From Hirudinaria manillensis (taxonomy: Eukaryota > Annelida > Clitellata > Hirudinida > Hirudinidae), in assembly GCA_034509925.1 (NCBI GenBank), contig CM067531.1, forward strand, positions 1,048,501 through 1,112,500: a stretch of 64,000 bases of DNA, given 5' to 3'. The notes below the pieces were generated by a model. That model was given only the letters and a program-made list of their open reading frames with translations, was not told the origin of the DNA and did not search any database. Numbering within the stretch: position 1 is the first letter of the stretch; every line of letters starts with the position of its first letter. The position numbers were made by a program, and so were the translations under genes. Below, one piece after another: positions 875-63,916 of this stretch.

Positions 875-1565
875 TTAAAATGCTAGTCCTTCACAAACGT
901 TCGGAGGATCGAATATTCTTCTCGACATTTCATAAATTGGACTCTGAGGTGAAACCAAAGAAACAGGACTGATATTATTTAAGTTGATATCCGTGCCTGG
1001 CTGTTCAATTTCCAAAATGCACATGTGAGTCACATCTTCTCAGTTTCGTTTTGACCTAAACCAAAGGTAATTAATTTAATAAAGCTAATTTAATAAAGTT
1101 ATTAATTAACTTTCCCATTTGCGATTAAAAGTGGAATCGTGGAATAGAAATTTCTTTATAAGCATTCTCCAAATTGTATGAGCATAATTGTTACAATCAC
1201 AATAGCCAGACAGATATCAAGCCTGCAATTAAAAATATTTGATTTAAAGCTTCACAATTTTAGGAAAAACCTAATTTGAAGTGCGACCCAAGTATAAAGT
1301 ACTAACCAGTTACATTTCCAATACAGATATCAGTTCTTTTAACCGACCTGTCCATTACAAACAACGTACAAATGGTTGAGATCATCTTTCCTGAAATGGT
1401 TCCTGAAATGAATATAGCAGTCATTAGAATCATCATCATCATCTCTCCATTCCCAAGCCAAACATTCTGATTGTTCACAATGAATTAAACATTCATCTGT
1501 TGTATCCCTTCGAAAAAGGGATCCTGAATATCTTTTTTTGTAAATCGTCAAATTTGAATTACAAA
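875..1565 (-). pseudogene. R1: 5'-truncated CTLD-PAN receptor pseudogene, paralogue of R3
   Basis: Only the 3' half of a family member is present. A PAN/apple exon lies at 1307..1565, a degraded TM exon at about 1095..1222 and a tail exon at 875..1055. The PAN exon opens in frame (VCNSNL as in R3, then six-cysteine motifs SECLAWEW and CYIH), but a net one-base insertion after CYIH shifts the frame before the conserved LYVMDRSVK stretch. The TM exon also needs a frame change: its hydrophobic run and its downstream basic part are in different frames. The tail begins R-S-K-R-N and then hits TGA at 1040..1042; the remaining frame to 875 still resembles the R3 tail (LNN...SPIYEM). No CTLD exon is found upstream, although intron sequence just 5' of the PAN exon resembles the matching R3 intron. 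I infer a partial duplication of R3 that then decayed. Confidence 0.75.
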
Positions 1566-2080
1566 CTGAAATTAGTGTGTCATGTTATTGAACATCCAAA
1601 GAAACAAATAATTTAATTTTAATGGTTTTTGTTATTCTAAGAAGGAGAGACCTCATCATGTTTATTTTGCTTTCACTCTACAAACTGCACAAGTGACTCA
1701 TAGGTTTTCCACAATTATTTCTAAGCAAAACAATTACTCAAAGTGTTATTTGTATTAGAATATACTAACGTTAATTTTTGGTATAGGATTAAAAAGACAA
1801 TTTTTGACTAGCTTTTAGCATATTTTCTCTTAAGAATATCTCTTAATTATCCAAATTCTCTGACAAAAAAGCAAACACAACCATATTAATTTTTATTGCT
1901 AAATATTCAAAGTAATGACATTCATTGTGTAACAACAAATTGTATTTTAAATAAGAAAAACATCCTAAAATGTAGGAATTCAAAATGGCCAATAATAATA
2001 AAAATAAAATGGATACATGATTCGGTATTTGTTAAGCCAAGCAATAACTTCTGAATAAATATGAGGAGAACTTTAAACGG
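1566..2080. other. Gap between R1 and R2
   Basis: This is where the CTLD exons of R1 should lie. The first few dozen bases are similar to the R3 intron that follows its exon 2; beyond that I see no coding signal. Confidence 0.45.
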
Positions 2081-3983
2081 TCATCTTTGGGGTATTTGAA
2101 GAGGAGTATAAATGTGGGTCTGGTTAGCAGTATGTTCAGCATCCACATCTCCTGGTTTATTACCGTGAGTGGTACTGTAAATGCTCATGTCATGCGATCT
2201 GGAGATGAGAATTGTTTAAGTGATTAATCGCATTTGAAGAGAATTCGCTTTAAAATAGTAGCAGAAATATTTATCTAGTAATTCAAAATGGTTTATTTTT
2301 GGAATTAATAAAGTTAAAATTATATTAATCTTAAAGTCTGTCATTTGTAAAGAATTGACCTCTGTTTGTGTCTTTTCCATAGTAGTAGGCCAAAACAGAA
2401 ACACAGTGCGATCGCGATGAACGGAATTATCATAATTTCAGTTATATCTGAAAATGGGTTTATTACTGAGATTTAGAATGAAATTAATTGATTATTAATT
2501 TTTTTTAAATAAATGATAATAATGTAAAATTACATTATCTTGAAAATTTAATACTGACTTAGATAGCAAAATTGTCTACTTGCATCTGGATCCGTGATGT
2601 TTTCCTCTTAAGAATAGAAAAATATGATTTAAATTTTGTTAGCTAATAAATCAAGCATGTCCATAAATTACATTTATTACAAAATAAATAAAATTAAATA
2701 ATATAAATTGGATAATAAAATAAAACTAAATGAAATATCAAAGCAGTTAAAAATAATTTAAATTCTTATGCCGTTTTAATTCCAAAATATTTAATATAAA
2801 GTAACACGTAATATGTTAAAATTATAACATAATGAGGATGAATAAATTGATTAACTTGCCTACCTCTGACATTCCCAATGCATATTTCAGGTATTTTAAC
2901 TGATTTATCCATTACAAACAGCATGCCAATGCCATCAATCATATTTCCAGAGATTACCTTATGAATCCAACATCCGTTGTTATCAAAATCAGACTTCCAT
3001 TCCCAAGCCTCACATTGTGATTGTTCACATAATTCCAAACATTTTAATTTTGATAAGTTTACATGAAAGATTGAATTGCTATCATATCTCTTCCGTTCAT
3101 ATGCTGTGATATTTGAGTGACAGCCTTAATGATTAGAAATTTAATAAACGGTTCATTATTAAGAATAATAAATGTCTAAAATGATACAATATTAACTGAT
3201 TAAACCAAAATTAAGGCATAACAAAAAATAAACGAATGTTGCATTAAATTTTAATAAATGTGTTTAAGTATTAAGTTCTCTAACCAATCGAGCAAATGAA
3301 TGCAAACTGTCGGTTTTTATCATTTCTTGAATTCTCTGAACGTTGATAAATCTGTGCAACTCCATCGTCATCACTTGATAGAAAGCATATGTTGCCGTGA
3401 TTATCTGAAATCAGTTTTAACATGATACAAATTTAAAATAATTTTAAAAAGTTATTTTACATAAACCTGATTGGTGATTCATACTAGCAGATTTGCATCG
3501 CATGATATCAGATTTTAGTGGATCACTTAGTGGATTGATTATAAATCTATTAAACGTTTTAGATGCGTTTATTTAGAAATGATTATTTCAAAACTTGGAA
3601 AAGAAATAAATTAGATTATTGTAATAATAACTTGATGTGTTTTTAGTCCATCCGCAATTGCTTCCAACTATTCCATCATTCAAAATCAACTTTGTATCCT
3701 TTGGAAAAGAATGTTTGGAAAGAAATCCTTCCACATTCTTTAAATTTCTATTGTCAACAAGTTCCAGAAGCCAGCTTCCATGTTTTGCATCCTCGCAATA
3801 TTTCTGAGCCTCTTTGACATTATTAACGGTCACATTTGGTCCGAACGAAAACAAGCAATAAGTATCATATTCATAGCAACTGGAATAAATAATTCCGCAG
3901 ACACATGCGTAGCTTGTTAATATCGCAAATAGCAGGATATTATTTAGCCTGAGATTCCTCTTCGATAATTTTATGAAATCCAT
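2081..3983 (-). CDS. R2: CTLD-PAN transmembrane receptor, class A
   Basis: Six exons join into one 321-residue frame: 3632..3983, 3285..3404, 2864..3124, 2580..2606, 2360..2447, 2081..2198. The protein has a signal peptide (about residues 1-30, hydrophobic LLFAILTSYACVCG), a CTLD-like domain to about 157 (CYEYDTYCLFSFG, EAQKYCEDAKHG, W-K/T-N near the end of exon 1, then FAFICSIG), a six-cysteine PAN/apple domain at 158-244 (CLELCEQSQCEAWEW, GCWIH, ICIGN), a linker with an NIT glycosylation site, a TM helix at about 257-279 and a 40-residue tail. Tail tyrosines sit in SIYST and HIYTPL; the latter is YxxL but lacks the ITIM -2 residue. Exon 1 ends TCA-A rather than the usual TCA-G, keeping the GT donor. 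No Ca-binding EPN/QPD/WND motif is visible, so sugar binding of the classical type is unlikely. The role as a recognition receptor is inferred. Confidence 0.85.
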
Positions 3984-4393
3984 TAGGTATGTGAAAAAAC
4001 CACTTTGATATTATTGAGATATTAAATATTTGATAAAATATTTAATGAAACGTATAATATTCCTCCTCAACAAATTAAACACCGATATATCGCTTCCCGA
4101 ATTTTAGTCATTAATTTCGGTTAAACCCAGCTAAACCAGATATTTTAAAGCAATTAAGTAAAGTTGTCATTCTTTTCACTTTCTATTTCAGGCAAGATCG
4201 GCCTAAACTCCCAGCCAATTGATAATTCAAGAAACAGGAAAACATTAAAAGAGACGTACTTGTTTATAAAATTCATTTCATTTCTAGATTCGAAATTACT
4301 AAAAATATGTTAAAATTTGTTTATAAGTTAAAAATACGTTTAATTGTCAGAATGTTATTCAGTGTAGCACTCAAGCTGCCATTCATTGATTAG

Positions 4394-6077
4394 TTAAAAA
4401 GGTATTTTTTCATAAGTTTCAGATCTATCTGATACTGTCTGATCTCTCGTCTGCTTTACATAAATTGCACTTTGATGAACAATACTTGGAGTCAAAGATA
4501 AATAACTGTTATTGAGTGGTTCTTCGTTTGGTTGTCCACTTTGCGTAACAGATTTTTGAGTCAATGTATCCCTCTTTGGCTTTTTCCTGCAAATTACTTT
4601 ATTTAATTATCAGCCAATTAACTTTTGTAGTTTTACAGCAAAATTTAACTTGAGATTGAAAGTGGAATTATAATGAAACCTTAGCTAATTCATATTTACT
4701 TTGTTTTAAGCTGTTTCAAAATACTTCCAATGGTCGATATTATTCCAATTAAAAGAAATAAAGGAACCAGAGTGGAAATCAAAATTATTGTGGCTAAAAG
4801 AGAACAAATTTAAAATCATGTAATATTTAAAATAATTCTCAATTCAAAATTGTACCAAGACATTATAAAGTTTTTACTTGAATTTGAGGCCGAAACATCT
4901 GGCTCTAAAAAATAAATTCATTTGTTTCTTTAAAGTTCTATAATTCATTAGATTCAGAAACAAATTCTGTGGTAACAATTCTTAGAAATTTGAGAAGTTA
5001 ATAATACATTATTCTATTTTTTATTATTACCATTGTAAGGTAAATAAAAGTACTAACCAGTTACATTTCCAATACATACGTCAGTTCTTTTAACCGATCT
5101 GTCCATTACATATAAAGTACCAATGGATGAGGTCATATTTCCTGTGATGGTTTTGTGAATATAGCAGCCATTTGAAGAATAATCATCTTCATCATCTCTC
5201 CATTCCCAAGCCGAACATTCTGATTGTTCGCAATAAGCTAAACATTCATCTTTTGTGGTATCCCTTCGCAAGGAGGATACTGGGTATTTTGATTTTTCAA
5301 ATATCTTCAAATTGGAATTGCAAACTGAAATTAGTGACAAAATTTCGCCTTATTGAACGTCCGAAGCAACAAGTACATAGATTTAGAGAAGGAATATATA
5401 GAAGAAATATATAGAAGAGAGGATCGGGGTCTTCTTAGTAATTTAATTTTAAAAATTCATATTTTCAGTAAATTATTTAATCTGGAATCTTTACCGGTCA
5501 TGCAAATAAGTTGATATTCATTGCCTTCAGGTATCATTGCTGCTTTTTGTCGGTAAAATTTGACATCACCATTGTCAATGACTGAGTGGGTAGTATCATT
5601 AGTACATTCTAAGAGTATTTAAAAATTAATTTATTATTGAATTTAATACATTTATAAATGAGCCATCAAACTTTTGTATTTGGCTCAGAAAAGATTTTAT
5701 TTTAAAAGTCATAATTTTTTTAAAGCTAAGTAACTTTTTAAAACAGTAAGACCTGATTTATTTTTAATCCACTTCCAATTGTTTCCAATTCTCTCCGCAT
5801 TTAAAATCAACTTTGTATTCTCTGGAAATTGATGCTTGGAGAGAAATACTTTGACATTTTTTAAAGTCCGTTTATCAACAATTTCAAGAAGCCAGCTTCC
5901 ATTTTTTGCATCCGCACAAAACTTCTGTGCCTCTTTGACATTATTGACAACCACATTCGGTCCGAACGAAAACAAACAATAAGTTTCATAATCGTAACAA
6001 GTTGCATGTAGGACTGATGAAACATTGATAAAACAACTTTTTGTCAAAAATATAAAAAGTAAAATGTTTAGATACAT
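4394..6077 (-). CDS. R3: CTLD-PAN transmembrane receptor, class A
   Basis: Six exons give 339 residues: 5753..6077, 5495..5608, 5058..5324, 4878..4904, 4700..4793, 4394..4586. A signal peptide precedes CYDYETYCLFSFG; the CTLD-like domain closes with YQLICMTG at about residue 146. The PAN domain (147-235) carries ECLAYCEQSECSAWEW and GCYIH, with Y replacing the usual W after the fifth cysteine. The TM helix is at about 247-270. The lysine-rich tail of 64 residues holds three tyrosines: NSYLSL, SAIYVKQ and ETYEKI, so two YxxL/I motifs without a perfect ITIM. R1 is a truncated relative of this gene. The start codon at 6077 places the hydrophobic core immediately after it, supporting the choice. 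Confidence 0.85.
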
Positions 6078-7287
6078 AGCTTTTAATGAAGTAGAATGTA
6101 CATTCAGTATTGTTAATAAGTGTTAATAAGGCTAGTTCATCTCCTGAAGTCAGTAGCTTATAATTAATTGTCAATTGTATAATTGATGCCCAATTATTTT
6201 GCTCGTTTTTGGTGCTGTAAGTAGTAGTTTCATTGAACTTCAAAAATAAATATTAGCTTTAAAAAGAAAAGCTCTTCTGCCTGCATTAAATATTACCGGG
6301 AAGGAAATTTAATTAACATAATGAGCCATGATTGAATCCTAAACCTGATATTAACTCGTGAAACTTACATATTGATGAAATGAATAAAATGCATTTTATA
6401 CTATTTCAACGAAACCATTTTGAATTAAAGTAATATTTTGACATTTTTTTTTTGTGAAAATCAATTTATTCTGACAAAATGTATTATTGTTTGTGTAATA
6501 TTAACTTACTAATATTTGTTACTCTGAAAGATTCGAAAATATTATGATTAAGTATATTTTTTTAATTTTTTAAATTGATCAAGTAATGGCAAGTGTCAAG
6601 ATCCTTTCGCTGTTGAAGATTCTTTTCAATGATCTTAGCCAGGTAAATAATCGAAGAATTAATTTCAGTTTAAAACAATGTTTTGGTCCCTAGGTTTTGT
6701 GCAATCAATTTTGATAAATTTTAAACGTTGTGATAACGAAGCTTAATTATAACTCATTTTGCACTCATTTCAATCTTATCTGCTAAAAAGATTACTTATG
6801 TCGCAGAAAGATGGAAGTTTGTTTGTTTTTGTTTTATATAAAAATTAATAACTTAATGACTTGATGGATGGAAGTGAAAGAAAAGAACACCGAGGTGCTT
6901 AACTTAAGAAGTAGTAGTTTTTAGAAACCCAAATGCAAGGAGCAAATGTTCAGAATATTTATTGAATTTATTTTCCTGAGATTTTTCATTTTGATAATCT
7001 AGCTTAACATAATAAGTAGATACTTGTGTTACAATTAACTGCAACATACGATACTATTATTACCATCGTCCTTGAATATGGAGGGGCAATACATTGAAAA
7101 AAAAACGCAAACTAAATCCAAAAAACATTCCTGTAATATCACAAATTAGTGATAACACATTTTAAAAGAAGGTATTACTATAGCATCATTAAATTTTTTT
7201 TTACTTAACTTTCAATGAAAATAAATTATGAAACCAAACAATAGAAAGTTTAGTTTACAGAAGCTGTTCCAAAAAGCTTGTCAAAAG
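6078..7287. other. Intergenic spacer R3-R4
   Basis: AT-rich sequence without recognisable exons on either strand. Confidence 0.5.
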
Positions 7288-9190
7288 TCAGGCAGTAATT
7301 CTTTTAGAAACAAGGTTTACAAGAGATGCGTAAATATGATCATCTTCTGGTTTCAAACCATTTGCCATTCTGTTGACCTGCGTCTTTGAACTTCCGAGAA
7401 AGGATCCAGAAGAGACTTCTGGTGTATGGACAGTTACATTGGTCATATTTTCATTTCGATGATCTGGTAGCATTGCTTGTCTAGCATTAAAACAAATTGA
7501 CATGAACAAGTATTTACCATGGTAAATGAATGCAGTTATTGTTATGGTCATTGTAATAGAAGGTTTTAATTGAATCATTATCTTCAATAATTGTCTCAAT
7601 TTAAAATTAAAATTAAATCATTTTCTTTCTTCTATAATCCAATCTTACCTTTTTCTAAGCCAGAATAAATTAATAATTATCAACATCATTGCCAATATTA
7701 CAATGCAAGATATCATGTAAACTATAGAAATATCTGCAAATATGATTAAAGTGAATCAATGATTATAAAATTTAAAAATCAAAATAAATGTTAAAATATT
7801 AAATTTTGATTCTTAAAATATAGAACGAGAAATTTTTAATTTGTTGCAGTATTGGATAGACTGTTACATTTCTTTAAAATAATATAAAACTAATATTGAT
7901 TTTATAAATTAGAATTCATTTAATCTTACAAAGTTTAATTGGTTTTGCCAACCTGCGTTGTTAACGCATATAGAGGTTGATTTTACAGATTTGTCCAATA
8001 CATAGAGGATCCCATGGAGATTTTCAGTCATGTGTTTTTCTTTAATAGTTTTGTGAATCCAACAACCGGATTTAGAATCCCATTCCCAGGCTGCACAATC
8101 CGTCGTCTCACACTTCTCCAAACATTCTTCCTTGGTTTTATTTTTATGTTTGACTCCGAAAATATACCTTTTCTGGTGATATTCCGTGATTTTCGAGGGG
8201 CAATCTTTGGCACAAGTTAGATAAATAGTTATAGTAGTTAGATAAATTGGTTGTAATATTTATAAAAGTCAGATAAATAGGTTGTAATAGTCAGATAAAT
8301 AGGTTATCTGTTCAGATATGGCTTTAATTAGATATTAAATATTAAATACAAAAAATGATTAGCTCCTTCCTACAAAAATACTGAACACATCTTCAATTGC
8401 ATTAGGGCTCGCTTTTATTACCGTTCTCCCAATTACAAAATAATCTATCGCGAATTTACACGTGAATTTATAATTAAGTAAAGAAAGTATATTATGCATT
8501 ATTACATCTTGGAACAAAGTAATATAATACTATAGTTAAGTATTAACTAAATCTAACTGATCATGCAGATTATGGAAAATTTGATGCGTTCGTTTCGACT
8601 TCCTTCTGAATTTCTTCTTCGCCTGTAAAACTTTTGTTCATTGTTTCCATTTGAAATGGTTTGAATTTCAGGTATCTCAGTAGCGTCTGCGAATATTCAG
8701 AAAATATGTTTTTAAAATTAATTATGGAAATATTATAAATTCATCGCTAAACTTTCGGTAAATAATTATTTTTACTTATAACCTTGATATCACAAAAAAA
8801 AAATTATGTTATTTTCAAGATTTTATTATTAATAAAATACAAATAACTCCATAAAAGTTTATCACCCAATTTCTCTGACATCCATTTAGACGAGTTTCGA
8901 AGTTTTTCATTGCTCAAAATCAAATTTACATTCTCTGGAAAAGAATGAGTCGTTAGAAATTCCTCGACTTTCTTTAAAATGTTTCTGTTAACAATTTCAA
9001 CAGGCCAGCTTTCCTGGTTTGTTTTCGAACAGATTTTCTGAGCCTCACTGATATTGTTAATCAGAACTGTCGGTCCCATAGAAAACAAGCAGTAAGATTC
9101 AAATTCATAGCAAGTCGATTGGAAGGTTCCACTGACAAGACCGTAACTTGTAAATAACAAGATGACTTCAAACATTGCTAAAGATGACAC
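7288..9190 (-). CDS. R4: CTLD-PAN transmembrane receptor, divergent class A
   Basis: Five exons give 327 residues: 8866..9190, 8558..8686, 7953..8204, 7649..7733, 7288..7480. The linker exon found in relatives was not seen; phases still fit when the PAN exon joins the TM exon directly. The CTLD-like part is the most divergent of class A (CYEFESYCLFSMGP, EAQKICSKTNQESWPVEIV, ending IICMI). The PAN domain has ECLEKCETTDCAAWEW and SGCWIHKTIKEKH, close to R5 and R6. TM at about 238-258. The tail ends near HIYASLVNL, a YxxL motif with H at -2. Start could be Met1 (9190) or Met6 (9175). The second intron contains a short minisatellite. Confidence 0.82.
8215..8310. repeat. Short minisatellite in R4 intron 2
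   Basis: Imperfect tandem copies of a unit resembling GTTAGATAAATAGGTTGTAAT lie between the PAN exon and exon 2 of R4, each about 20-30 bp. Confidence 0.6.
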
Positions 9191-11511
9191 AAAAAATTGC
9201 CTTTTTAAGAATAACTGATTAATTTATCCCTCTGCGGTCAATTAGGGCAACTAATTAAACCGGATTATAAAAAATAAGTATTTTAGTTAAAAGCCCGATT
9301 TGAACGAGTGTTGATTGATAATAATGGCTGAATAATTACATAAATTTATATCATTATAAATAATCACGGGTTTTCAATTATCATAGATTTTGTTTCATTT
9401 TCACATGTAGTGCAATTAATTCATCTTAATTAAATTAAATAGAAGACACACTGATACCGACCTCCAGCGGATAAATTTAAAATATCCATCAAATCATTCA
9501 TCGCTAAAATATTATCTTTATTTTTTAATATAAGTTTCAAAAAATATTTAACAATATAATTTGACAGTTTCAATTTTCAAATGCAAATTTTCTTTAAAGT
9601 TCGTCAAATATTTTCAACCAATCCCGACCTCAGGTAATTTGCCAACAAATCAACATAAACATTAAAATATGTTCACGTGAATCGTAAGTTCTAAACAGCT
9701 AAATTACCTTTTGTAGATTTTTCTGCTTGGACATCATAGTTGGAAAGTCCAACTTGAAATATTTTCGTTTTACTCTCACATTGCCATTTATAATACTTAG
9801 GATTATAATGATTAGGCGCAAAATATTTTTTAACAGGTGGAATATCACTTCTGAATTGTTTTTTTTTATATTTTTATTTTTTTTCTTAATTGTTTTGGTT
9901 AAAGTTTGAGCTCCAATAAAAATTTATTTCATGGAGAAACAGGAAGAAATCATAGCGCTAAGTGAAAACCCAGAGAGCAATTATTACGTTGCATAAGTAT
10001 AAATAATAGCAATAATAGGTTTAAATTAAGTCTGTCTACAACTCAATTTACTTTCAAATTTGAGAGCCACATTTTATAAATTAATTTTTGTAAATATATT
10101 ACTTCCATACCTTGTAAATTAAAAATATGTTACAATATTTTAAATAATTTGAACAACACGTTGCTTTGGATAAGCGCAAATAATTCAAAAGACGACTTAA
10201 ATTTAATTTCTAAACCTGATCCAACAAATTATAATATTTAATAACAAATTTAATATTTTTAATATTTTCAAATTCAGTAAAACACAAATCACTGAGCTTT
10301 GAAAAGACTAGAATTAGTATTAGAATTAAAATTATCAAAAATAACAAGAAGCAATATCGATTGGCCATCATTAGCAATCCTGAAAGATGGATTTGTGATA
10401 CCCAAGATACAATTCATTTCGAATCGAATTTCGGACTTCCTTCTTTGAGCAGACAGACTTGAAAATGGCCTGGGAATCGCTGATACCTTTTCTTCAATTG
10501 CTGTGTCTAATTGGCTATAACTTAATTATAACTTGCAAGCATTATTGTTGTTGTTATTATTATTATTATTATTATCATTATTAATATTATTATTATTAAT
10601 AATAATTAATTATAAAATGAAGTAAAACAAAAATCATAGGCACAATGAATAAAAAATATTTAGACAATTATAAAAAAATCCTGAAATCACATTTAAAAAT
10701 AAAGCTATGCAATCGGACGCCAGCCATAAGTGGGTGTTTCTGCATCGATTCCAATTGCTAAGCAGCTTCATCTTTTAGAAACTGTGGAATGTGGAATCAT
10801 TTTTCTAGTGACATAAGAAGGTCTCCAAATCAGTGGCATGTCCCTAATTTGGTTGTGATCCTGATCCGTGTTGAGGGAAAGTTTGCGTGATTATGTCTGA
10901 CTGATTCTTATTCTTTATTATTTCTATAGACTGCATTTAATTCCTGTTTTCTTTTCTTATAAAGCCAATTGATTTCTTACAAGAAAAACGATTAATTTAG
11001 CAAGAAAAATAATTATTCAGAAATTGAATGTAACATTAGTGGGATTATGCTATTTTTTAAAAGTCATTAAACGTTTAACTAATGGTAAATAGTTATTATT
11101 GTTATTATTAATAATAATAACACTATTAATAATAATAGCACTAATAATAATAATGGCACTAATAATAATAATGGCACTAATAAAAAAGCAATCTGATGAG
11201 AATAGGCTATTGGTCATCGTTGATGTAAGAAAACAATCAGACAGGAAGTAATATAAATTAATGAAAGCTAATTAAAAATAAATTTTGTGATGACTCCAAC
11301 GGTTATAAATAGTTAATACAGCAGTTAATATACATAATAGCAGTTAAGGAAGGGTTGAATGTGAAATAAATCGTCATCTTAATCATAATCATAATCGGAG
11401 GTTGTAAACGACATTCAAGCACTTAAGTTGAATGTACATCATTATAAAAGGGTTAAATTGAACTTGGCATGACTTGGTTGTTGGCGTTAATTTTAAAGTT
11501 ATTTTGAAAAA
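9191..11511. other. Spacer between minus block R2-R4 and plus block R5-R6
   Basis: About 2.3 kb with no family exon that I can support. It holds several short trinucleotide runs (ATT/AAT types near 10550-10610 and 11095-11190). This is the head-to-head promoter region of R4 (minus) and R5 (plus), so upstream control elements may be here, but none is individually recognisable. Confidence 0.45.
11443..11450 (+). promoter_or_regulatory. Possible TATA box of R5
   Basis: TATAAAAG lies 62 bp upstream of the R5 start codon, a plausible core promoter position. AT-rich composition makes chance matches common. Confidence 0.35.
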
Positions 11512-13325
11512 ATGCTTAAAATATTAATTCTTCAAAATGCTATTTCTATGGTCAGTGGACTGTCATACTCGACATGTTATGAAACTTATTGTTTGTTTTC
11601 GTTAGGACCAAATGTGACCGTTAATGATGTCAGAGAGGCTCAGAAAATTTGCGAGGATGCAATACATGGAAGCTGGCTTCTGGAAATCGCTGATGTTAAG
11701 ATTTCAAGGAACGTGGATAAATTTCTTTCTGAACACTCCTTTCCGGAGAATACGAAATTGATTTTGAATGCTGAGCGACAGGAAGGGAAATGGATGTGGA
11801 TTAATAATAGGGCAGGTTAATCACGATTCTGATTTATACTTTATTGTAAATTATCTTTGAAATAGTAGAATAAATATATGGTAAATTAATGTAACTTAAA
11901 TGTGTCAGTTTGTTCGAATCCAAAATTAGTTACGAAAATTCTCGATATTTATAATTTTTCATTTATTTGTCTAAAAATTCATCCAGAAGTTAATAATACC
12001 AATGGCGTTTTTTTATACCACGATGGAGACATAAAATTCTACCAACCTCAGAATATTACAAGAGAGAGTAATATAGAAAAATATAACTTCACGACCTTTT
12101 GCATGACTGGTAAATTTATGATGAACCAATAAAAAAAATAAACCGTTAATAATTAATTGAATATGAATTTATTTTGGTAAAGGTTGTAAATCAAATTTCA
12201 TAAAGCATAAAGGCAAGAGGTTTCTTTATGGAGTTCATCATAAACCTGAAACCATGGTTGGATGTTTGGAAAAATGCAAAACTTACGATTGTGCTGCCTG
12301 GGAATGGGATCGTCGAACCGGTTGTTGGATCCATCCAACGATTAAAGAAAAGAATATGATTGATAATGAACATGGTGACCTTTACATATTCAACAGAACT
12401 ATAGAAATTGATTTATGTGTTGGCGATAAACCACGTTAGTGTGTTTCACGATTTCTTGATTGATTTATGCTCATTGTAATCATTTTACGTAAATCTTTAA
12501 CACAAAATACTTTATTATGATGACCGTGTTTAAATTTAATGATAATAATATTATTATTATAACAAGCGATTTAAGTAAACAACAGCTTTTGATCAATTTG
12601 TTTATATTTGAAATTTTGTAATTCATTAATTAATTTAATAACTTGAATTTCAAGATTGATATAAAAAATTGCCACCATTATTTTTAAATAACGATTTAAA
12701 TAACATTTATTTCAACAATAAAATTATTTACTCATCCTGCAGAGAACGGAAAAAGCAACTCGAATATTAAACTGGGTGAGTTAAAATTGCCGGCAATTCA
12801 TTATAATAATTTATTACTTTATTTATTATTTACTTTTTAATGACAGTAGTGGTCTATGCTATTCCTCCGATTGTACTCATAACAATGATATCTCTCATCG
12901 CCATCATATTCTGGAAAAGAATAGTAAAAAGGTCTTTATTTTTGTTTTAAGAATTCATTAAGAATGTCCTGTAATGTTAAATGATTTTAGTTTTATGTAT
13001 AGTTTAAAATACATTTTAAAATAATGAATTGTTATTATAATTAATATACCAAATGTTATATGTTATAATTAAATTATTACTTTGAAATGTTCAATAAAAA
13101 CCATTACTTTCGATTCGATTTAGGAGAGCTAGTGAAGGTAACAGAAGAATCTACTACTATTGTGAAAATCCATTAAAGTCTCGACAAATTAAGCCTCTCA
13201 CTGAGACCAACAATCTCACATATGTAGATTTAGCCTCAAACCAAAACCAATTGGGTAGCATCGATCGTCAGGTTTATAACTCGATCAAGGAAAGCATTTA
13301 TGTTAAGGAGACTGCAGTGAAATAA
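11512..13325 (+). CDS. R5: CTLD-PAN receptor with ITIM tail
   Basis: Six exons give 332 residues: 11512..11815, 11987..12109, 12183..12434, 12743..12775, 12847..12931, 13124..13325. The CTLD-like domain starts CYETYCLFSLG, two residues shorter than the family form CYEYETYC, and closes with FTTFCMTG at about 142. The PAN domain (143-226) has CLEKCKTYDCAAWEW and TGCWIHPTIKEKN. TM at about 240-260. The 67-residue tail contains LTYVDL, an exact ITIM consensus (I/V/L/S-x-Y-x-x-L/V/I), followed by QVYNSI and SIYVKE. In known families a phosphorylated ITIM recruits SH2 phosphatases such as SHP-1/2; an inhibitory role here is inferred from that. An AATAAA overlaps the stop region and may serve as polyadenylation signal. 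Confidence 0.87.
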
Positions 13326-35920: not shown

Positions 35921-36556
<636 letters not shown>

Positions 36557-48011: not shown

Positions 48012-48523
48012 TTTTTCAACTTAATTAATTCTTGTCACTAGACTATTAACTTGGCTCTTAACCCTCAAATCCGTAAAGCACATCATTCATCTTCTATAAT
48101 TATGATGACTTAATGCACAGGCGAGAGTTTCATTTCCTATTTCTCTATCTGGGAAACACTTAACATTAGCAAATTACAGCCTATCTGTTACTTTCTTTTA
48201 CCTAACCATATATTCAACGAAGGTTAATTGTAATTTAAAGAAATTATTTTGAGTGCATTTATGACTAATTTTTTATTTAAAATAACTAATTTTATCAAAT
48301 TAAGTAACTTCTTTCAAATATCTATTGAATTTTTAATTAAAGTTACAAAAACACATAATTCCTAATACAATTATGATTAAAACTGAAAGCAACCTCTTGA
48401 AAAAAGTCGATTTTATTTTCCTATCAACAAATAAATTTTTTAATAATAAAAATTTCTAAATAATAAAATGCATTTTCAATTGGCTGGCATTGGGTTCTCC
48501 ATGTTTGTTGGTTCATACTGCCA
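48012..48523. other. Spacer R18-R19
   Basis: No exon recognised. Confidence 0.5.
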
Positions 48524-50406: not shown

Positions 50407-51867
50407 TATTCCGATTCATAATAAATGTATAGTAGAACATAATTATCGAAAGTTTTCTCCGGTTTTATATATTTATTATAAGCGAATTGAGCGAACAATG
50501 AAAGGCTTTAGTAAAGTACGGACAGCTTGCTCAATCAGGTCCAATTAAAGCTTTTAATTACAAGTTAGTAACATATCCTTAATATAATTATTATTGCGAT
50601 GTGCCAGTCACACGAAAATCGACGGGAATTTTTAAATGACTAATACCAAATACTTCCATATTGCTAAAAGTTAAGCCTACTAAAATAGGGATGGGCAATA
50701 GTATAGCTAATCGTAGAACAGAAAAATTAATTTTGAAATTAATGGCAAATTCATCTGCATCTTAAAATGACTACTCTAATTGAATTATTATATTAAATTC
50801 GAATATTTGCGCACATTTATGTTTTTTTTCTCGTGTTTTCTATGCTTGAAGCCATGATGTTTTGACAACACAATCAGGAAGTAAGGCGTCCAATTGAGTT
50901 TTTGATGAATCGTAAGTAAGAAACATGTGAGAAAATCCCAGACAAAACAATCAAAATATTACGACATTTATTTTGTCAGTTAAGGATTGCTATAATTAGA
51001 AATCGTAAATAACTTGCAAAAAATATTAATAAAATCCTCCTAAAATTCCACCGGGACGTATCGACTTAAAACATGAAAACAATAATAATAATAATAATAA
51101 TAACACAAATAAATTCTAAACTATAGTATCAACTAAGTACAAATTAATTACTGATTTAAAATATTAGCCACAATTAATATCATTTCTAATGAAACTGTTA
51201 TCTTGAGTATTTTTAACATTGGTTTTTACTTGAAACATTTTCACTTTCGTTATAAAAAACCCTTCAATTTTATTTAGTGTAAAACTTCTTTTGGAAACAA
51301 ATCGTTTAAATGAAAATAAACCGTAAATAAATAAATTTATATTATTATTAACATTAATTATTTTTAATCAGCCAAATAATGACAACTATCAAAACCATTA
51401 AATAATATTTAATTATAATATTTAATTTAGTAAATCCCATTTTGTAGGCAGCAAAGCATCGTCACCATAACATTGCATGTAGCGAAGAACAGCTAAACAA
51501 GGAAGAACAGCTGAGTAGAAATCGAAATTGTCCACAAAACATTTGCAAATGACAAATCAAGGACAGCAACTGACTGAATAATAATTACCGAATGAGAAAC
51601 AAAAACATTCACAGATTGAAGAAATATCAAAGGCAAATATTATTTAAATACAGGGTAGGCTTTAGATTCCCAGTTTATCAACAAACATTTATGAAACTCA
51701 TTAACTAGTTAGCTAATTTCTATAAATTGTTGTATCCGATATCTCGTAAATTGTTGAATATTACAATAGAATATATAAATTTATTATCATAATAGGTAGG
51801 CATTATTTGGATAGAACTATGAAAAATTGACCTGTTAGCAATAAAAATGTTTGACATAATAATTTAT
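50407..51867. other. Intergenic spacer R19-R20
   Basis: AT-rich, with an AAT run near 51078-51101. No exon recognised. Confidence 0.5.
50463..50471 (-). promoter_or_regulatory. Possible TATA box of R19
   Basis: TATATAAAA on the minus strand lies about 57 bp upstream of the R19 start codon, the same spacing as the TATA box of its relative R10. Confidence 0.4.
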
Positions 51868-54276
51868 TTATTTGCGATTCACTTGAGCGTAAATATCGCC
51901 CATTGGTCCAATGATGGACGATTCCTTTACGGTTTCTTTGCCTTTTCGAAAGAACAGATCAGCGTATACAATGCAGTTGCTGTTCTTGTTTGGTTGTTCA
52001 CTTTCAACACGATTTGTTTTTGGTGATGACGACGACGATGATACTATTTGGAATTGTCCGGACGGTGTAACAGGAAATATAGTAGCGACGTTTGATTTCT
52101 TACCCTCTTTCCTAGGTTTAAGAAGTTACTAACTTTATTATTATTAACTACCAAAGTAAAATATTATTGTAATATCATTTATAATGGCGGCGAAAATGAT
52201 GATCAGGAAGTATTTATATTTGTCGGTGAGGTTAAATCATTTGTTCAACTTCCTTATGGAATTCAAAACTAATCATAAGATTTCCAAAAACAATTATGGG
52301 TATTTGATAATTATCGCAATTTAACTTAATAATAAAATTTTAATTTACATCGTTAATTAGTCGATTATAAACACAAGAAATTTTAAGTAAGCAGAAATAT
52401 AAAGTTGGTTTGTGGATAAACATGTTTTTAAATTATTTATGTTTATGAGGTTGAAATGAATGGGACTGTTTTTACTACAAAACGCATATCATTTTTTGGG
52501 ATTTAAGCAATAATTCCAAACAAAACCTCTTCTTGATTCTCCTCCAAATAATGATAATGACTACAATAACAACCAGCACTATCAGTGTCAGAATCCCCAA
52601 AATGATATAGAGGGTTTTCAAATCTGTGGCAAGAATTAATCGAATTATTGCATTAAATATCTGAAAATATATCTGTCAAAAATCACAAATCGACAAAAAA
52701 AAATAAATTCCACCAGAAAAAAATGTTAGATTATTAGACCACCAATAGAATTTAATTTCAAAAATGTTTTCTGTAACAATTAAAATTAATTCCATTTGTA
52801 TCCAAAAAGCAAGAAAAAGGGAAAAATTCATTAATGTTTATTTTGATAAATTTATTTTATTTATATAAAACTTTATTTAAAAATTAAAATCAATGAAATC
52901 GAGAAAAATAAAACGAATTGATTGTTCTGACCGAAGTTCGAGGCACTGTAACCATTTAAATGCGACTTCCCACTTGGCGGTTCTTAAGAAATCAGAATGT
53001 TATTTTGATGTTAACATGTTTTAACACGCAGTTTTTATAAGCATGAATCATTTTAATTGTAAAGAAATATATAATATAAAATATGAATTATAAAAGGGCG
53101 ATTATATTAAGACATAATGTTTTTTAAATAAATATTCTTTTTTTTATAATTATTAGCTAATAAGAGCATTTGCAAATACATGTGTCGATTAATAAATAAA
53201 TAAATAAATTAATTAATTAATAATTGTTCTTATATTTTAATCACATTTCTTAATAACAATTTGATTAATCATCTGCCTACCCGTGACGTTCCCAACGCAG
53301 ATGTTAGTTGTTTTTGCAGACCTATCTATTTTATAAAGAGTGCCATTTGGATTTCCATACATAATTTTTCCTTGTATTGTTTTGTGAATCCAACAGAAAT
53401 GATGATACGCAGGATCGGGAGCAGAATCCCATTCAAAAGCCTCACATTCTGAAACTTCACATTTCTGCCGACATTCTTCAGTTGTTATATTTCCGTGTCC
53501 AGTTGCATCAAGAAACCTGCTCTTAGCATGTTGTTTAAATTTAGAGAAGCATTCTGTAATCATAATATTAGTCTCATTAATTAATAATGAAACTAACAGA
53601 GCTAAACATTACAAACAAAATAAATTGCTAACAAACAAGAATTAAAATTAATTATATTCATTGAAAATAAAATCAAAAATATAATTTATATTTTTTAAAG
53701 CCAATTCAATTTATAAATTTTGAAAGCTAAACTAAATATCTCGCCAAATAACAAATTCAATCACATAATAACAGTTACCTGTCATGCAAATAAATGAGAA
53801 TTGATGGCTTTCATTGTTGTTAAACCTTGCCAGACGATGATAAATTAGAGTATCGTTTGACAAATTTAAATGGTTTTTATCTGGGGAAAATTCTAGAAAA
53901 GTTAAAAAAATGGTTTTGTCAACTATTTGCATTTTAAAATCACAAAATATTTTTAATAACCTGATTCATTTTTAATCCACCTCCATCGACTATTAAATTG
54001 TTCAGCGTTCAAAATCAACTTTGTATCCTCTGGAAAAGAATGACTGGAAAGAAATCCTTCCACATTCTTTAGAATTCCGTCATCAACAATTTCCAGAAGC
54101 CAGCTTCCATTTTTTGCATCGTCGCAAATTTTCTGAGCGCCACTGACATTATTAACGGTCACATTTGGTCCGAACGAAAACAAACAATAAGTTTCATATT
54201 CATAACATGTCGAATATACGTCTCCCTTTGCAAAACCAAAACTTGTTAAAGTCGCAATAAGTACAATTGCTAACAT
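51868..54276 (-). CDS. R20: CTLD-PAN receptor with ITIM tail (pair of R12/R13)
   Basis: Six exons give 357 residues: 53961..54276, 53779..53892, 53281..53553, 52953..52982, 52527..52623, 51868..52111. Signal peptide LAIVLIATLTSFGFAKG and the CTLD-like domain (CYEYETYCLFSFG, NDTLIYHRLARFNNNESHQFSFICMTG region) are close to R13, as is the PAN domain (CFSKFKQHAKS, CRQKCEVSECEAFEW, FCWIHKTIQGK). The TM and tail are instead of the R11/R16 type: TM LYIILGILTLIVLVVIVV, tail with a serine run, IVYADL (exact ITIM) and the end GPMGDIYAQVNRK. Ectodomain from one branch and tail from another suggest exon shuffling by recombination. The upstream flank shares a block with R12 and R13. Confidence 0.88.
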
Positions 54277-54554
54277 CGCATTCAGTAATAAATTTCTTTT
54301 TCTGGTCGATTTGTTTTTATTCCGACGCTATTTGAGTCTTGTTAACTGCAGTGATAACCTATTGAATTAGATATATTTTTACATATAAAATTAGAAATAA
54401 ATTTTTGGTAAAAGATGTATTTAAATCTCGCAAGTAAAATTGTAAAGAAAACTAATATAAATTCATTTTAATCCTCAGATATTTCAGAAGTCATCGGCCA
54501 TTTGAATCGTCCGAAGAAATCAATTATAGCATGTCATGTGTCGTTGAAATCGAA

Positions 54555-54810: not shown

Positions 54811-54850
54811 ACGAATCCATTGATTGATTTGTGAATCAAACAACCGTATA
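54811..54850 (-). pseudogene. Relic of a PAN exon
   Basis: The minus strand reads GCLIHKSING, matching the GCWIHKTI core of PAN exons (W to L), flanked by no further family sequence. Very short, hence low confidence. Confidence 0.35.
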
Positions 54851-55890: not shown

Positions 55891-57240
55891 TTATCGAGCT
55901 GGATCACCCTCAAATTGCCACAGGTGCATGTAAACATGCTCATCACGGAGTGGAGTGATGTAATAAATATCATCTTCCCTGGAAGAACCTAGAGTTTTTC
56001 CAATGGTTGGAACCTCCGTGTACGACGGAATTTCATACGAGTACGTTGTTTTCTCAATGGAACCGCTGGAAGATAGGGAAGGATTCCTGAGGATGGGTGG
56101 TTAGGGGGCTATGTTAATGATTATCCTATTACAGCGCTTAAATAATTAAAGATATGTTGGAAATTAACAAATATAGAAAAATCGACACAAGTGAAAACAG
56201 GCGGAATTATTTCATTAAAAACTCCTTAAATTACCTTTTAACCTTTCTTCTCCATAGCACCATAGCAACCACAAACACAATTGCAACTACGACAACCGGT
56301 ACGATTATGCAGGGCAGAATTGTTCCTATAAATTAAAATAATTTAATTAACAAGCAGCAAATATTATTCGACCGTGAATTAATTTCTCTTTCTCATAATT
56401 TCTTAAAGGTTTAAACCAATCAATTATTTTTCGTTTTAATAAGTTGTAAGTTTCAAGTTCCAAAAGAAATTGTCATGATTGAAAGAATGTTATTATTATT
56501 ATATTATTATTATTATTATTATTACTATTATTATTATTATTTTTATTTTATTCCTGTTATTGTCTAAAAATGTTAATAATTCATACCAAATCGTATCTGG
56601 TTAAATGATGGTTCTGCAATGATAATGACTCTGAATGATAAGAAATTCTAGTAACGATTATGACTCTTAAATTTTATCCTCAACGAGCTTACCTTTTATA
56701 AACCCCACACACTTGCTGATAGACTTTGTAGTTCTATTTATTGTGTACAATATCCCGCCTATGTTTTCGCTCATATTTTTTCCAGAAATTGACGGATGAT
56801 TCCAGCATGCATCCTGGGCTCATTCATAAGCATCACAAGGTGAATTCTCGCATTCCTCTAAACATTCTTGCTGTGTTTTATTGTCGTGACGGGTGCCGCT
56901 AAATATTACAACCTGATTCTCTTTTAATCCAGCTCCAGACATTTCCAACTTTTTCAGCATTCAAAATTATCTTTGTGTCCTTTGGAAAAGAGCGATTTGA
57001 AAGAAATTCATCCACATTCTTTAAGGTTCTATTATCAACAATTTCAAGAAGCCAGTTTCCATGTTTTGCATCCTCGCAAATTTCCTGAGCCTCTTTAACA
57101 TTATTAACGGTCACATCGTGTCCGAAAGAAAACAGACAATAAGTTTCATATTCATAACAACTCGAATATAAGGTTCCAGTGACGAAAATATGACATGTTA
57201 AAGTCACAACAAAAAGAATTCTGCGAAACATTTGTTTCAT
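55891..57240 (-). pseudogene. R22: receptor pseudogene lacking CTLD exon 2, with stop in PAN
   Basis: Exon 1 (56913..57240) is intact: CYEYETYCLFSFGHDV, EAQEICEDAKHGNW, WSWIKRESG. About 20 bases after its donor, sequence of the middle of a PAN exon begins (GTRHDNKTQQECLEECENS, to 56693), so exon 2 and the PAN start are deleted. Within PAN the W codon of the AYEW motif is TGA. Downstream TM (56235..56325, ILPCIIVPVVVVAIVFVV) and tail (55891..56086) are intact, the tail holding TYSYEI, SYTEV, IYYIT and HVYMHL. The preserved TM and tail suggest recent loss. No functional receptor can be produced from the PAN frame. Confidence 0.8.
56490..56545. repeat. (ATT)n microsatellite in R22
   Basis: Imperfect ATT/TTA run between the PAN remnant and TM exon of R22. 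Confidence 0.85.
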
Positions 57241-57759
57241 GAGACAATTTCTTTTAATTTGTTTGATTCTCAGTAATTGTACACCGAAGACAGCGTTCCA
57301 ACCGTGGTTAGTCAGGAAAATAATTGTAAAAGAATATCACCATCATGCTTTGTTCATTCTTCAAATCAATTCAAGGCTCCTCAGAGCTTTTAGCTACTAA
57401 TACTGGTAAATCCAAACTTTGAATGAAAATTATGAATAGCTCTGAGACGTTGCATTGTTGTGCCACTGCTATTTTGTTGTTACAAAGTTGTTTATAATAT
57501 CGCAACGGGAAATATTTTTTCGTAAGGTTTAAATTAACTTCTAAGTCGTTGTAGGTGATATTAGCGAATCAAATAGGTTTGTAATTAGGTTTAAAGATAT
57601 GGGTGGGGGTTCACAAGGACTTTTTCAAATGAATCATTTGATTAAATATTGCACGACACAGAAAACCATGTAAAACGAATTAAGAAAAAATTGTTCTAAA
57701 AAATTGGAATCGGGAATTCCCAGAAACGAGATATTTTTTCGTCGACATTTCCATAAGCA
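57241..57759. other. Spacer R22-R23
   Basis: No exon recognised. Confidence 0.5.
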
Positions 57760-60000
<2,241 letters not shown>

Positions 60001-60550: not shown

Positions 60551-61949
60551 TCATGGTCTAAAGAAGATCAACAAAATGATTTCAAATAAACAGGTGAATC
60601 CACTAAGAAATCCTATGAAAACGAGTTAAAATGTTAATTAAAAACTAGTTAAAATATATTTAAAATCATTATTCGGATAATTATAGAGCTATTGCTGTTA
60701 ATATTATACCTATGTTTTTATTATTATCACCACCGCCGTCATCATCATCATCAACATCATCAATATCATCATCATCATCATCGTCATCGTCATCATCAAT
60801 TATGGATTGGATAAATGTATAGAAACCTGTTTCACTTGACCCTAACAAAAAAGAAAAATAAATTTTATATTATAATATCAATAAAAATATTTTATAATAC
60901 TATATAATGTATATTATTCCACAATTAGCATATTTTATTTAATTTTTAAAAAAATGAGAATAAACAAGCAAAATATCGTTCAATCGATTGTATCAATTAT
61001 TGCGTACCAAAAATACAGTGGTCGGCGTCTTTCTTGGATCGACTCATCAAAGCGTGCTGATTGGTTCCATCGTGGGGTACCAACTGTGCCTCACTGAACT
61101 TATTCGAGTAAATCCAGCATCCTTGGTGAGCCTTTACGTAGGTGAATCCGACCGAGGTGCAATCCGGTTGTCTTTCGCAATACTTTTCGCATTTCTCTTT
61201 GTCATCGATCTGGATTTCCCGCCTATCTGCTTTTACGATATTGGCATTTATGTTTTGATCATTGTAAACTTTCCATTCTGCTCTGCATTCTGCACGAAAT
61301 AAAAAAGATAAAAATAAGGACATTTCGCAAGATTACAGAATTAAAAGTATATTATGCCACGGCATTTATTATTTTAAAGTTATGAAAACATAGTGGAATG
61401 CCACAAACCTGTCATGCAAATGACAGCGTATCTTTGAGACTCAGAATTATTTAAATATACCAATTCACTTCCATTGAACCCAATACCCAGAGACTCTGGA
61501 ACTGTAGTCATCGTTTCTTTTATTATTATTATTATTATTATCGTTATTTTTTTATTATTATTATTATGGTAGAGGTTAATAAAATCGCAATTATAAGACT
61601 TATCGCTATTGTCTAGTAATTTACCAAGTGTGTTTTGCTTTATCCAGATCCACTTTCCATCAGCGTTCCTTTTGGCGTTCAGGATGACATTGGAGATGGA
61701 ATGGTCGATGAAATCATCGATATTTTTTCTAGCATTACTGTCTGCTATTTCAAGGGGCCAACTGCCCGGAATTGTTTTGTTGCATTGATAGGTTGCAGCC
61801 GACAAATCATTTACAAACTGGTTAGTCTCGTTTCGGAACAAGCAAAATACTTCGTAAGGATTGCACCAAGTTTTAATTTTTGCATTGACAGATATCTGCA
61901 TTTGCAGATAGACTACCATCGTAGTCAAGTATAAAACTTGTGTCCCCAT
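60551..61949 (-). CDS. R24: divergent class B receptor, polyaspartate stalk, no signalling tail
   Basis: Five exons give 297 residues: 61625..61949, 61409..61501, 61008..61289, 60710..60841, 60551..60612. CTLD-like part WCNPYEVFCLFRNETN, DLSAATYQCNK, HSISNVILNAKR, ending YAVICMTG. PAN (about 140-233): CRAEWKVYN, KCEKYCERQPDCTSVGF, GCWIYSNKF, HCIFG. The fourth exon is unusually long and encodes an acidic stalk rich in consecutive Asp (GAT microsatellite), with GGG near its end. The last exon encodes GFLSGFTCLFEIILLIFFRP and stops, so there is a short TM helix with a central Glu and no tyrosine tail. Intron 1 (123 bp) is open and in frame, so retention would insert 41 residues. Coding GC is higher than in neighbours. 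It may signal through a partner or be a decoy; inferred only. Confidence 0.78.
60724..60797. repeat. (GAT)n tract inside R24 coding exon
   Basis: Trinucleotide run on the minus strand encoding most of the Asp-rich stalk of R24; length is likely variable between alleles. Confidence 0.85.
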
Positions 61950-63334
61950 TCTGTGACTCTAATTTTTTTTATATTGTAGTGCGTTTCTCCAGCAATTTTT
62001 GTGAGATTCTGCGTAGCATAGGATTACCGAGGATATGAATTACGATCGCCATTTCAATAGGACCTCTGATTATTAAACTACAATTTGTTTTACAAAGAAA
62101 TCGCTAGCATATAAACATTTACATTGTAATAGGAAAATGCTTAGATGACGTCATCGTAGATGAAATATAGAAAGATAGGGACAAACACAAATTGAAAATA
62201 ACGTATTAGTTAGAAGGGCCAACGTATTTATTAGTATATAGAAAGAAATATAAACATAGTAGTAATAGTATACAATAAAATACACCACGTACAAACATAT
62301 AATAGTATATTATTTAGATTATTATATATTAATAGTCTGTAACAGATGGATCTCATGATGTTAAGTCATTTAGTTATCAGAAGTTAATCACTCAACCAGT
62401 TTTGAGGTGATTTAATGTTTAATTTGAGGAATGTTAATGTATAATATAAATTTTAATAAATATAAATTAGTAAATATGAATATTAATATAAATTATACAT
62501 TTAAAAATAAATTTCTTTCGTAAGACTTCACTGATGTCCAATCAGGTATAAACTGGGAATTTTGCATTATAAATTAGTTTAAAATTTCTTTTACATTATA
62601 TTTGTAAGAATATCATTTTTTATTTTCGTTTTAATCAATCCCTTGACAATCCACGAGAATTCCTGAGATTTATATATTTCTTTTTTCAATCCTTAGAGAT
62701 GAAACCTAAAGTGGTCTTTTTTAAACTTACGAGATTTATATAATTAATACCAATTATTTCTAATTATTTTCATAAATAAATTCTTTAAATTAATTAAATC
62801 TTTAAACTTCTTCATTTTAATAACACAAAATTTATTTTTAACTTTTTCTTTAACTCAGTTTTAAAATCCATCTCGGGCGTCAGAAAATGCATTGCATTTT
62901 TTACTATTATTATTTAAATTTAATTAAAAATAATAATGAATTCTTAGGATGAACAACAACCCAGTAGTTTCCAGCCTTTCTTGACTACAATATGTCGGTT
63001 CATCTTTTGAGATCACGACCTTGAAGGTGGTACTTCAACACTTGACTCTTTCCTGATAATTTCCAACGTGCGTCAATACTATGTTATATCATATTATATC
63101 ATAAAAATAATGTTTTAATTAAATAGAAAATAATTATTATCAATTGCAATATTGTTATTATTCAAAAATACGTATCTTAGCAAATCAGAGCTTCTTCTTT
63201 GCCTGACAGTAAATGCCAATTTAGTGTATCAAAGATATAGAAACGTAAGGAAGCGCATTGAATTAATCAACAATTATTTGCTCATTTGTTTTATTTATTT
63301 ATTTCTTATTTTAAACTATTAAATTATTAATTTA
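61950..63334. other. Spacer R24-R25
   Basis: No firm exon. A short frame beginning at an acceptor near 63053 (RKESSVEVPPSRS, then stop) could be a tail-like exon but is too short to support. Confidence 0.4.
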
Positions 63335-63916
63335 CTAAATTAATTTATCAGGGAAAATAAAGCCATACAAATCGCGAACGACTGCCTTCATCTTCTTCCT
63401 CCTTCTGTTGAATTAAAAAATATTAAACATATTTTTTAATTAAAAACTTTTAAATTAAAAAGCAAACTTGTCTATTATGATATCGAGAAATTTCTTTTTC
63501 TTGCATTTATATTGTGGCTACTGATAATATCTATTGAAATAGGTCCTAAAATGTCTAGGAATGATTTTATTAATCTCTATACCGGTGATAATTTATGTTG
63601 ATAAATAAGTACATAAGTACAAGAAGATAGGTACAGGCCCTTTGTAGGACTATTGAAGGTGAAAGAATTTCATGCATCTGATTGTGCTTAAAGAGAATAA
63701 TTTTAATTTATGTATAATATATTATAATAAATAATAATACCCAGCATACATTACATATTATTATATATCATAAATAGTATATATTATGGATTTCTCATAA
63801 TTAACATTTTTACATTAGATAGCTTTATACGTGCCTTCTCAACAGCAAAATCACTCCTACGGCCACAGTTATGGTGATCAAAATCAGTAGCAGTGTTATC
63901 ATCAATGTAATGTTAA
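63335..63916 (-). CDS. R25: 3' end of another receptor, running off the window
   Basis: A TM exon starts at 63916 with a phase-1 acceptor and encodes NITLMITLLLILITITVAVG then VILLLRR. Read straight on it stops after HV (TAA at 63825..63827), giving a receptor with almost no tail. Alternatively AG|GCACGT could act as a GC donor to a small exon at 63335..63404 encoding RRRKKMKAVVRDLYGFIF and a stop. The ectodomain exons would lie beyond 64000. Family membership rests on the TM exon phases and position only. Confidence 0.5.

Follow-up and report, generated by a model that had tools for sequence, protein, structure and literature searches.

Vertebrate paired receptors occur as clustered genes, KIR and LILR among them, and paired receptors with immunoreceptor tyrosine-based inhibition motifs (ITIMs) or activation motifs (ITAMs) are best described in vertebrates, on immunoglobulin (Ig) or type II lectin ectodomains. 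Natural killer (NK) gene complex receptors (Ly49, the Dectin-1 cluster) carry a C-type lectin-like domain (CTLD) without sugar motifs, are clustered, signal through tyrosines and have type II orientation. In CEACAM1/CEACAM3, Siglec-11/16 and CD300A/C, receptors with much the same ectodomain carry either an ITIM-type or an ITAM-type tail, and gene conversion between members is described (PMC5112662, PMC5701461, PMC12447643). Among invertebrates, tunicates are reported to have ITAM/ITIM proteins and a CTLD without sugar binding, examples being a Halocynthia haemocyte glycoprotein with two ITAMs and CiCD94-1, and the Botryllus CD94 orthologue is called type II (PMC5465252). The Alr family of Hydractinia is a large clustered invertebrate family with Ig-like domains and a role in allorecognition (PMC11999971). 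Here we analyse 64,000 nucleotides of the leech Hirudinaria manillensis (assembly GCA_034509925.1, contig CM067531.1, here C6:1048501-1112500; "the window" below), which hold a tandem array of type I receptor genes with a CTLD-like domain, a PAN/apple domain and a tyrosine-bearing tail. With moderate confidence, we read it as a chromosome-specific immune-type receptor family that evolves as paired receptors with a new ectodomain. Vertebrate paired receptors have Ig-like ectodomains, whereas the leech array has CTLD and PAN; NK gene complex receptors are type II and lack PAN, whereas the array is type I with PAN. The tunicate text that we consulted describes neither a CTLD-PAN pairing nor ectodomain twins with ITIM and ITAM tails (PMC5465252), and we recognised no described CTLD-PAN family with ITIM/ITAM tails or an allorecognition role in the portions of the open-access literature searched. 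New in the array are a near-identical tract in one CTLD exon amid largely diverged introns and PAN exons, and ectodomain twins with unrelated tails.

Six-frame scans of the window (27-31% GC per 4-kb window) located 21 CTLD-a exons, 16 on the minus and 5 on the plus strand, and 21 PAN exons (E 3e-10 to 2e-65 for whole exons, up to 2.6e-4 for pieces of broken units). One CTLD-a exon is truncated (20971-21153) and another frameshifted (39037-39293); two PAN exons (1305-1566 and 56691-56939) are frameshifted too. This gives 22 units between outermost recognisable exons at 1305 and 61958: 18 whose CTLD-a and PAN exons are both open, and four broken ones (U0, G7, G13 and G19). The original prediction of about 25 receptors was thus right about the array and slightly high in its count; the live copies, fragments and pseudogenes that it saw on both strands are there. 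When a gene was defined as a CTLD-a exon of at least 75 residues followed on the same strand, within 1.5 kb, by a PAN exon of like length, we counted 36 genes across all retrieved sequence, 18 of them inside the window. The receptor family is almost confined to one chromosome: in a genome of 148.4 Mb on 23 contigs, C6 holds 49 of the 51 CTLD-a matches from one search, 51 of the 52 from another and 41 of the 43 matches to the array PAN. Nearly all lie in four clusters, at 1.04-1.13, 1.34-1.35, 1.55-1.60 and 2.36-2.39 Mb, each with both exons. Trees of 27 genes gave identical two clades, a and b, from CTLD and from PAN; hence the union of the two domains is older than the array. Inside the clades, the distances of the two domains are only weakly correlated (Mantel rho 0.17 and 0.35, values equalled or exceeded in 334 and 155 of 2000 permutations). 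Long TTA/ATT trinucleotide runs, possible sites of unequal exchange, lie within the array at 36340-36500 and about 59180-59374.

The layout that recurs is a signal peptide, a CTLD-like domain on two exons, a PAN/apple domain on one exon, a transmembrane (TM) segment and a tyrosine tail. Exon scans, spliced models and TM and tail searches all bear out this repeated layout and its tandem amplification, as first proposed. Of four genes spliced by hand, two gave models open from end to end: G12 (316 residues; plus strand, 34026..35920; five exons at 34026-34341, 34407-34520, 34747-35019, 35443-35521 and 35752-35920) and G14 (351 residues; minus strand, 40723..42585; six exons at 42585-42246, 42146-42030, 41872-41615, 41404-41354, 41214-41124 and 40921-40723). 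Junctions were badly chosen in the other two (G5 and G17), and the remaining units are exon finds rather than full models. Introns of G12 and G14 are in phase 1 up to the TM exon, whose end, behind a basic stretch, is in phase 2. Exon 2 of the CTLD-like domain, with the last cysteine in an ICMTG-like motif, was located in 18 of 21 units and a hydrophobic TM frame in 19; no TM frame was found in G7, G21 or the orphan PAN exon U0. Since G3 and G20 are without a recognised exon 2, the CTLD-a end of G10 is altered and G21 is without TM and tail, not all 18 open units are surely functional.

The identity of the second domain as PAN/apple is firm. Two of five copies submitted to Pfam passed the PAN_1 cut-off of 21.4 bits (25.2 and 28.6 bits) and another reached 19.9, while no PAN_1 match was returned for the G8 copy (22386-22643) or within spliced G14. 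An alignment of 19 rows has five invariant cysteines and one nearly invariant. The structure model has a predicted local distance difference test score (pLDDT) of 82.5, and a fold search of the Protein Data Bank (PDB) puts leech anti-platelet protein and N-domain fragments of HGF first, ahead of plasminogen, prekallikrein, factor XI and the plant protein SRK, all of them PAN/apple proteins; one fungal copper oxidase is also among the matches. TMq ranges from 0.43 to 0.67 in the 50 rows, and no row reaches E <= 0.001. The apple/PAN fold proposed for this domain was therefore recovered, on a reading that would have fallen had neither a CTLD nor an apple fold appeared. Searched with the Pfam profile, the genome has 53 PAN_1 matches, only one of them inside the window; further PAN matches lie, among other places, at C7:1.78-2.05 Mb and C3:8.85-8.93 Mb.

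A count of tyrosine motifs on open reading frames (ORFs) filtered for tyrosines was rejected, as 209 decoy ORFs had an equal YxxPhi density. We therefore searched for tails blind to tyrosine, starting at the TM donor and keeping, of the frames that follow a fair acceptor, the longest. This gave tails for 16 of the 19 TM-bearing units; G2, G5 and G13 were left out for want of a phase-2 donor, while the G8 pick (exon 2 of a neighbouring fragment) and the G20 pick (probably the wrong frame) were kept. The 16 tails contain 30 YxxPhi motifs, whereas shuffled tails have 11.8+-3.0 and none of 5000 shuffles reached 30; 15 of the 16 tails have at least one, and the density is 2.75 per 100 residues versus 1.15 in frames from 400 random starts. 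ITIM-type motifs number 9 against 3.6+-1.8 (41 of 5000 as high). ITAM spacing occurs in three tails (G9, G11 and G16) against 0.27 expected (9 of 5000), the pattern being the standard one, chosen after the tails were inspected. The tyrosine motifs of the tails thus exceed chance. By tblastn, G10, G13, G14, G15, G17 and G18 share a tail class with GPxGxxYxxV near the end, which spans clades a and b and in G10, G14 and G18 is preceded by [LI]xYADL; G11 and G12 share a second class, RRSQQKV.

Paralogues with closely similar ectodomains (81-88% DNA identity) bear unrelated tails. The alignment of G12 with G18, at 83%, sets in ahead of the CTLD and stops shortly after PAN, leaving TM and tail unaligned; between G14 and G16 the ectodomain aligns at 88% and 81% and TM at 71%, and the tails do not align. 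The alignment of G11 with G12 runs on through TM and tail. G18 (minus strand, 51868..54327; CTLD-a 53959-54225, exon 2 53779-53892, PAN 53279-53554, TM in 52675-52540, tail from 52111) has an ITIM-type tail with IVYADL and GPMGDIYAQV, while the G12 tail, of the G11 class, is near-ITAM (YETL-x9-YRNF) with an ITIM match. G14 has an ITIM-type tail (SNYVDV, LTYADL) ending in GPLGDVYTEVLR; its partner G16 (minus strand, 45722..48020; CTLD-a 47670-47936, exon 2 47454-47570, PAN 46773-47051, TM frame from 46398, tail from 45872) has ITAM spacing (YENL-x10-YQDL) plus an ITIM match (TMYQDL). Such pairs show reassortment of tails, and a stop/go polarity between twins is suggested by their motifs. CEACAM1/CEACAM3 are described with this arrangement (PMC5112662). 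Together with the tyrosine-rich tails, they support the likeness to clustered ITIM/ITAM receptors that the original prediction had drawn. Families of non-immune receptors, for gamete recognition, adhesion or chemosensation, likewise duplicate and diverge fast, and with 85 SH2 exon matches genome-wide, common SH2 adaptors could read their tails. Immune paired receptors are a better fit to the excess of ITAM spacing over chance and to ectodomain twins whose tails are unrelated, and we consider this non-immune alternative somewhat unlikely.

The two ectodomain parts differ in how alike they stay between copies. At fourfold sites, type a genes differ at 536 of 2305 CTLD-a positions (0.233) versus 655 of 1188 PAN positions (0.551), and type b genes at 213 of 1055 (0.202) versus 300 of 573 (0.524). 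CTLD-a is the lower in 113 of 120 type a and 52 of 55 type b pairs, the pairs being non-independent. The CTLD-a exon thus stays alike while PAN diverges. We scanned eleven chosen pairs (seven type b, four type a) in 40-bp windows. In five of the seven type b pairs, 80-160 bp of the CTLD-a exon are 98-100% identical, with upstream sequence, introns and PAN mostly at 40-65%, and the tract persists between copies 500 kb apart; in the other two, PAN or the entire gene is similar as well. One of the four type a pairs has a short tract (80 bp, 98-100%); the other three are alike in patches or over the length of the gene. A genome search with the tract stretch of the type b gene G17 (50088..50270, minus strand) gave 17 matches, all on C6 within receptor clusters. 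In 15-codon blocks of CTLD-a fourfold sites, type a is most alike at codons 15-45 (0.14, 0.19) and in the last block (0.11), and type b at codons 45-60 (0.06) and then to the exon end (0.13, 0.14), so that the two types conserve different blocks. Gene conversion limited to the exon is the simplest account of the tract; the conversion described for Siglec-11/16 spans the extracellular region, whereas here it would cover only a portion of a single CTLD exon. Selection acting directly on the nucleotides, as in a splicing or recombination element, could also explain a tract that ends within or near the exon, matches only within receptor clusters and involves different exon parts in types a and b. 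This seems improbable to us: at gathering scores the window matches no Rfam family, the one chance-level Rfam match near the tract lies outside it, and the two copy groups carry two sequences, as expected of conversion within groups.

Overall, we suggest that PAN would read a variable, probably protein, ligand, and that the CTLD would do a constant job, through a shared partner, dimerisation or a constant ligand. Ligand binding would lead to tail phosphorylation, upon which ITIM-type tails (LxYADL, GPxGxxYxxV) would recruit an SH2-SH2-phosphatase and ITAM-spaced tails an SH2 kinase, so that cells could balance stop against go; reassortment of ectodomains and tails, with exon-limited gene conversion, would keep producing matched pairs. 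The most likely role would be innate immunity against a changing partner, either a microbe or non-self tissue. More tentatively, we raise the possibility that paired-receptor immunity was built here independently of vertebrates on a CTLD-PAN chassis, with the CTLD fixed by gene conversion, PAN variable and ITIM/ITAM-type tails reassorted by recombination beside the PAN exon. If so, the signalling logic rather than the domain would recur, and it would be unusual for a single ectodomain to be divided into a constant and a variable part by conversion confined to an exon. The array offers a concrete locus for the study of invertebrate self/non-self discrimination. An allorecognition (fusion/rejection) locus, in which PAN would be a polymorphic self tag or its receptor as the Ig-like Alr proteins are in Hydractinia, would fit clustered, diversified, type I, tyrosine-tailed genes nearly confined to one chromosome, like the 41-gene Alr family (PMC11999971). 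It is the strong form of what the original prediction proposed. The SRK PAN among our fold matches adds no weight to this alternative, as many PAN proteins match, and we regard it as unlikely.

Several results weigh against the paired-receptor reading. The YxxPhi density of tyrosine-filtered tails, 3.11 per 100 residues, is the same in decoys passed through the same filter, and 7 of the 16 blind tails fit neither the strict ITIM nor the strict ITAM pattern. The division between the two is not clean: G16 fits both, and the tail of G12 ends in YRNF, an imperfect ITAM, and is formally ITIM by TLYETL. Unrelated tails on similar ectodomains were observed in no more than two pairs. The ITIM matches of G12 and G16, together with the tunicate ITAM/ITIM proteins already reported, lower our confidence in both the paired-receptor and the independent-origin readings. 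The genome has two SHP-type loci in which two SH2 exons and phosphatase exons stand one after another, one of the loci being at C8:5848501-5853500; genes of this type are general to animals, so they permit the proposed pathway rather than support it. In the five closest PAN pairs, the nonsynonymous to synonymous ratio (dN/dS) of PAN (0.73, 0.75, 1.07, 0.94 and 1.32) exceeds that of CTLD-a each time (0.39, 0.33, 0.87, 0.19 and 0.40); all-pairs medians are about equal (PAN 0.42 and 0.29, CTLD-a 0.45 and 0.27), so the ratios above 1 in two of the five are no more than a hint of positive selection on PAN. The last such points concern the first domain: Pfam matched Lectin_C in none of three window entries or five relatives, and the structure model, from a query still containing an intron, has a pLDDT of 38.9.

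The first domain is nevertheless likely to be a CTLD, the predicted identity being backed by profile comparisons and not by Pfam or the structure model. The CTLD exon profile gave ten weak PDB matches (E 0.011-0.7). Nine are CTLDs, with E from 0.011 to 0.45, and Ly49 chains, of the NK gene complex, are among the matches. About 34 kb left of the window, three genes (C6:1005501-1014500) have Lectin_C-positive CTLD exons, Lectin_C being above the Pfam cut-off in both exons submitted. Aligned with these by hhalign, the window CTLD profile scored 84% (E 7e-6) against 2.7% for a PAN control, the Lectin_C-exon alignment having just three similar rows. Given these matches, an unrelated cysteine-containing domain, as the Pfam negatives and the poor model would allow, is very improbable. 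EPN/QPD and WND are sugar-binding motifs of C-type lectins, and none was present in 16 exon-2 peptides. The three genes to the left are likely sister receptors: they share a CTLD apparently split at the same place (by eye), a TM segment and a tyrosine tail, and differ in having a Thr-rich stalk and no PAN that we could see. Their tails carry YENV, YISL and YYEV in one and YENA, YVSL and YEAL in another. A frame beside them looks like a Hes-type bHLH. At C7:2013379-2016567, both domain types also adjoin (by eye), with a PAN-like exon before the CTLD, the reverse of the array order.

The other units are given here from left to right with, in brackets, the span followed by CTLD-a, exon 2, PAN, TM and tail. 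They are on the minus strand unless marked plus. U0 (1305..1566) is a frameshifted fragment, an orphan PAN exon with no CTLD-a found upstream. It is followed by G1 (2079..4010; 3630-3896; 3285-3404; 2862-3125; frame from 2472; tail exon from 2198), G2 (4394..6122; 5751-6017; 5495-5608; 5056-5325; 4809-4699; 4588-4397) and G3, whose CTLD-a is divergent and exon 2 was not found (7288..9223; 8864-9130; PAN 7951-8205; 7755-7648; from 7480). Tails of G2, G5, G8 and G13 come from the tyrosine-filtered search only. Two plus-strand genes have ITIM-type tails, G4 with LTYVDL (11497..13325; 11557-11817; 11987-12109; 12182-12430; frame from 12810; from 13124) and G5 with LTYVEL (14518..16347; 14578-14844; 14964-15077; 15270-15521; frame from 15741; to 16347). 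Beyond G6 (17420..19772; 19413-19679; 19124-19246; 18613-18885; 17853-17731; from 17587) lies the fragment G7 (20724..21153), a truncated CTLD-a (20971-21153) with exon 2 and no PAN, and then G8 (21393..23470; 23075-23341; 22779-22898; 22380-22646; 21806-21681; 21545-21396).

ITAM spacing is found in two plus-strand genes, the type b gene G9 with YEEL-x9-YSQL (25043..26827; 25190-25447; 25527-25616; 25837-26112; to 26438; from 26641) and G11 with YKNL-x9-YRNL (30414..32451; 30522-30788; 30912-31037; 31284-31571; to 31978; 32253-32448). Between them, G10 (27192..29431; 29093-29344, 3' end altered; 28826-28924; 28391-28654; frame from 27912; 27390-27195) bears LVYADL and GPMGDVYAQV. G13 has a frameshifted CTLD-a (37787..39347; 39037-39293; 38835-38951; 38508-38759; 38218-38114) and a tail with LLYVNI and GPLGDVYSQV. 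Type b also includes G15 with GPIGQQYTEV (43321..45164; 44823-45080; 44677-44766; 44286-44561; to 43652; from 43540), G17 with GPRGDQYTEV (48524..50415; 50080-50337; 49916-50017; 49361-49639; 48936-48838; from 48746) and G20, with no exon 2 found (57760..60000; 59677-59934; PAN 58837-59115; frame 58409-58233; 57936-57763), whose VIYDDL tail is tyrosine-filtered, an equal-length frame being second longest in the blind search. In G19 (55891..57336; CTLD-a 56911-57177), exon 2 was not found, PAN is broken (56691-56939), and TM (56332-56234) and tail are kept. In the divergent G21 (61003..61958; 61626-61883; 61409-61495; PAN 61003-61290, PAN_1 28.6 bits), neither TM nor tail was found.

Two minor observations fall outside the window. 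Within C8:5848501-5853500, a long minisatellite coding for (SIHP)n, probably intronic, lies between phosphatase exons at about 3480-4120. On the right, where the first cluster ends (C6:1126191-1129427, 2848-3177 of that stretch), lies a frame that resembles a fatty acyl-CoA reductase.

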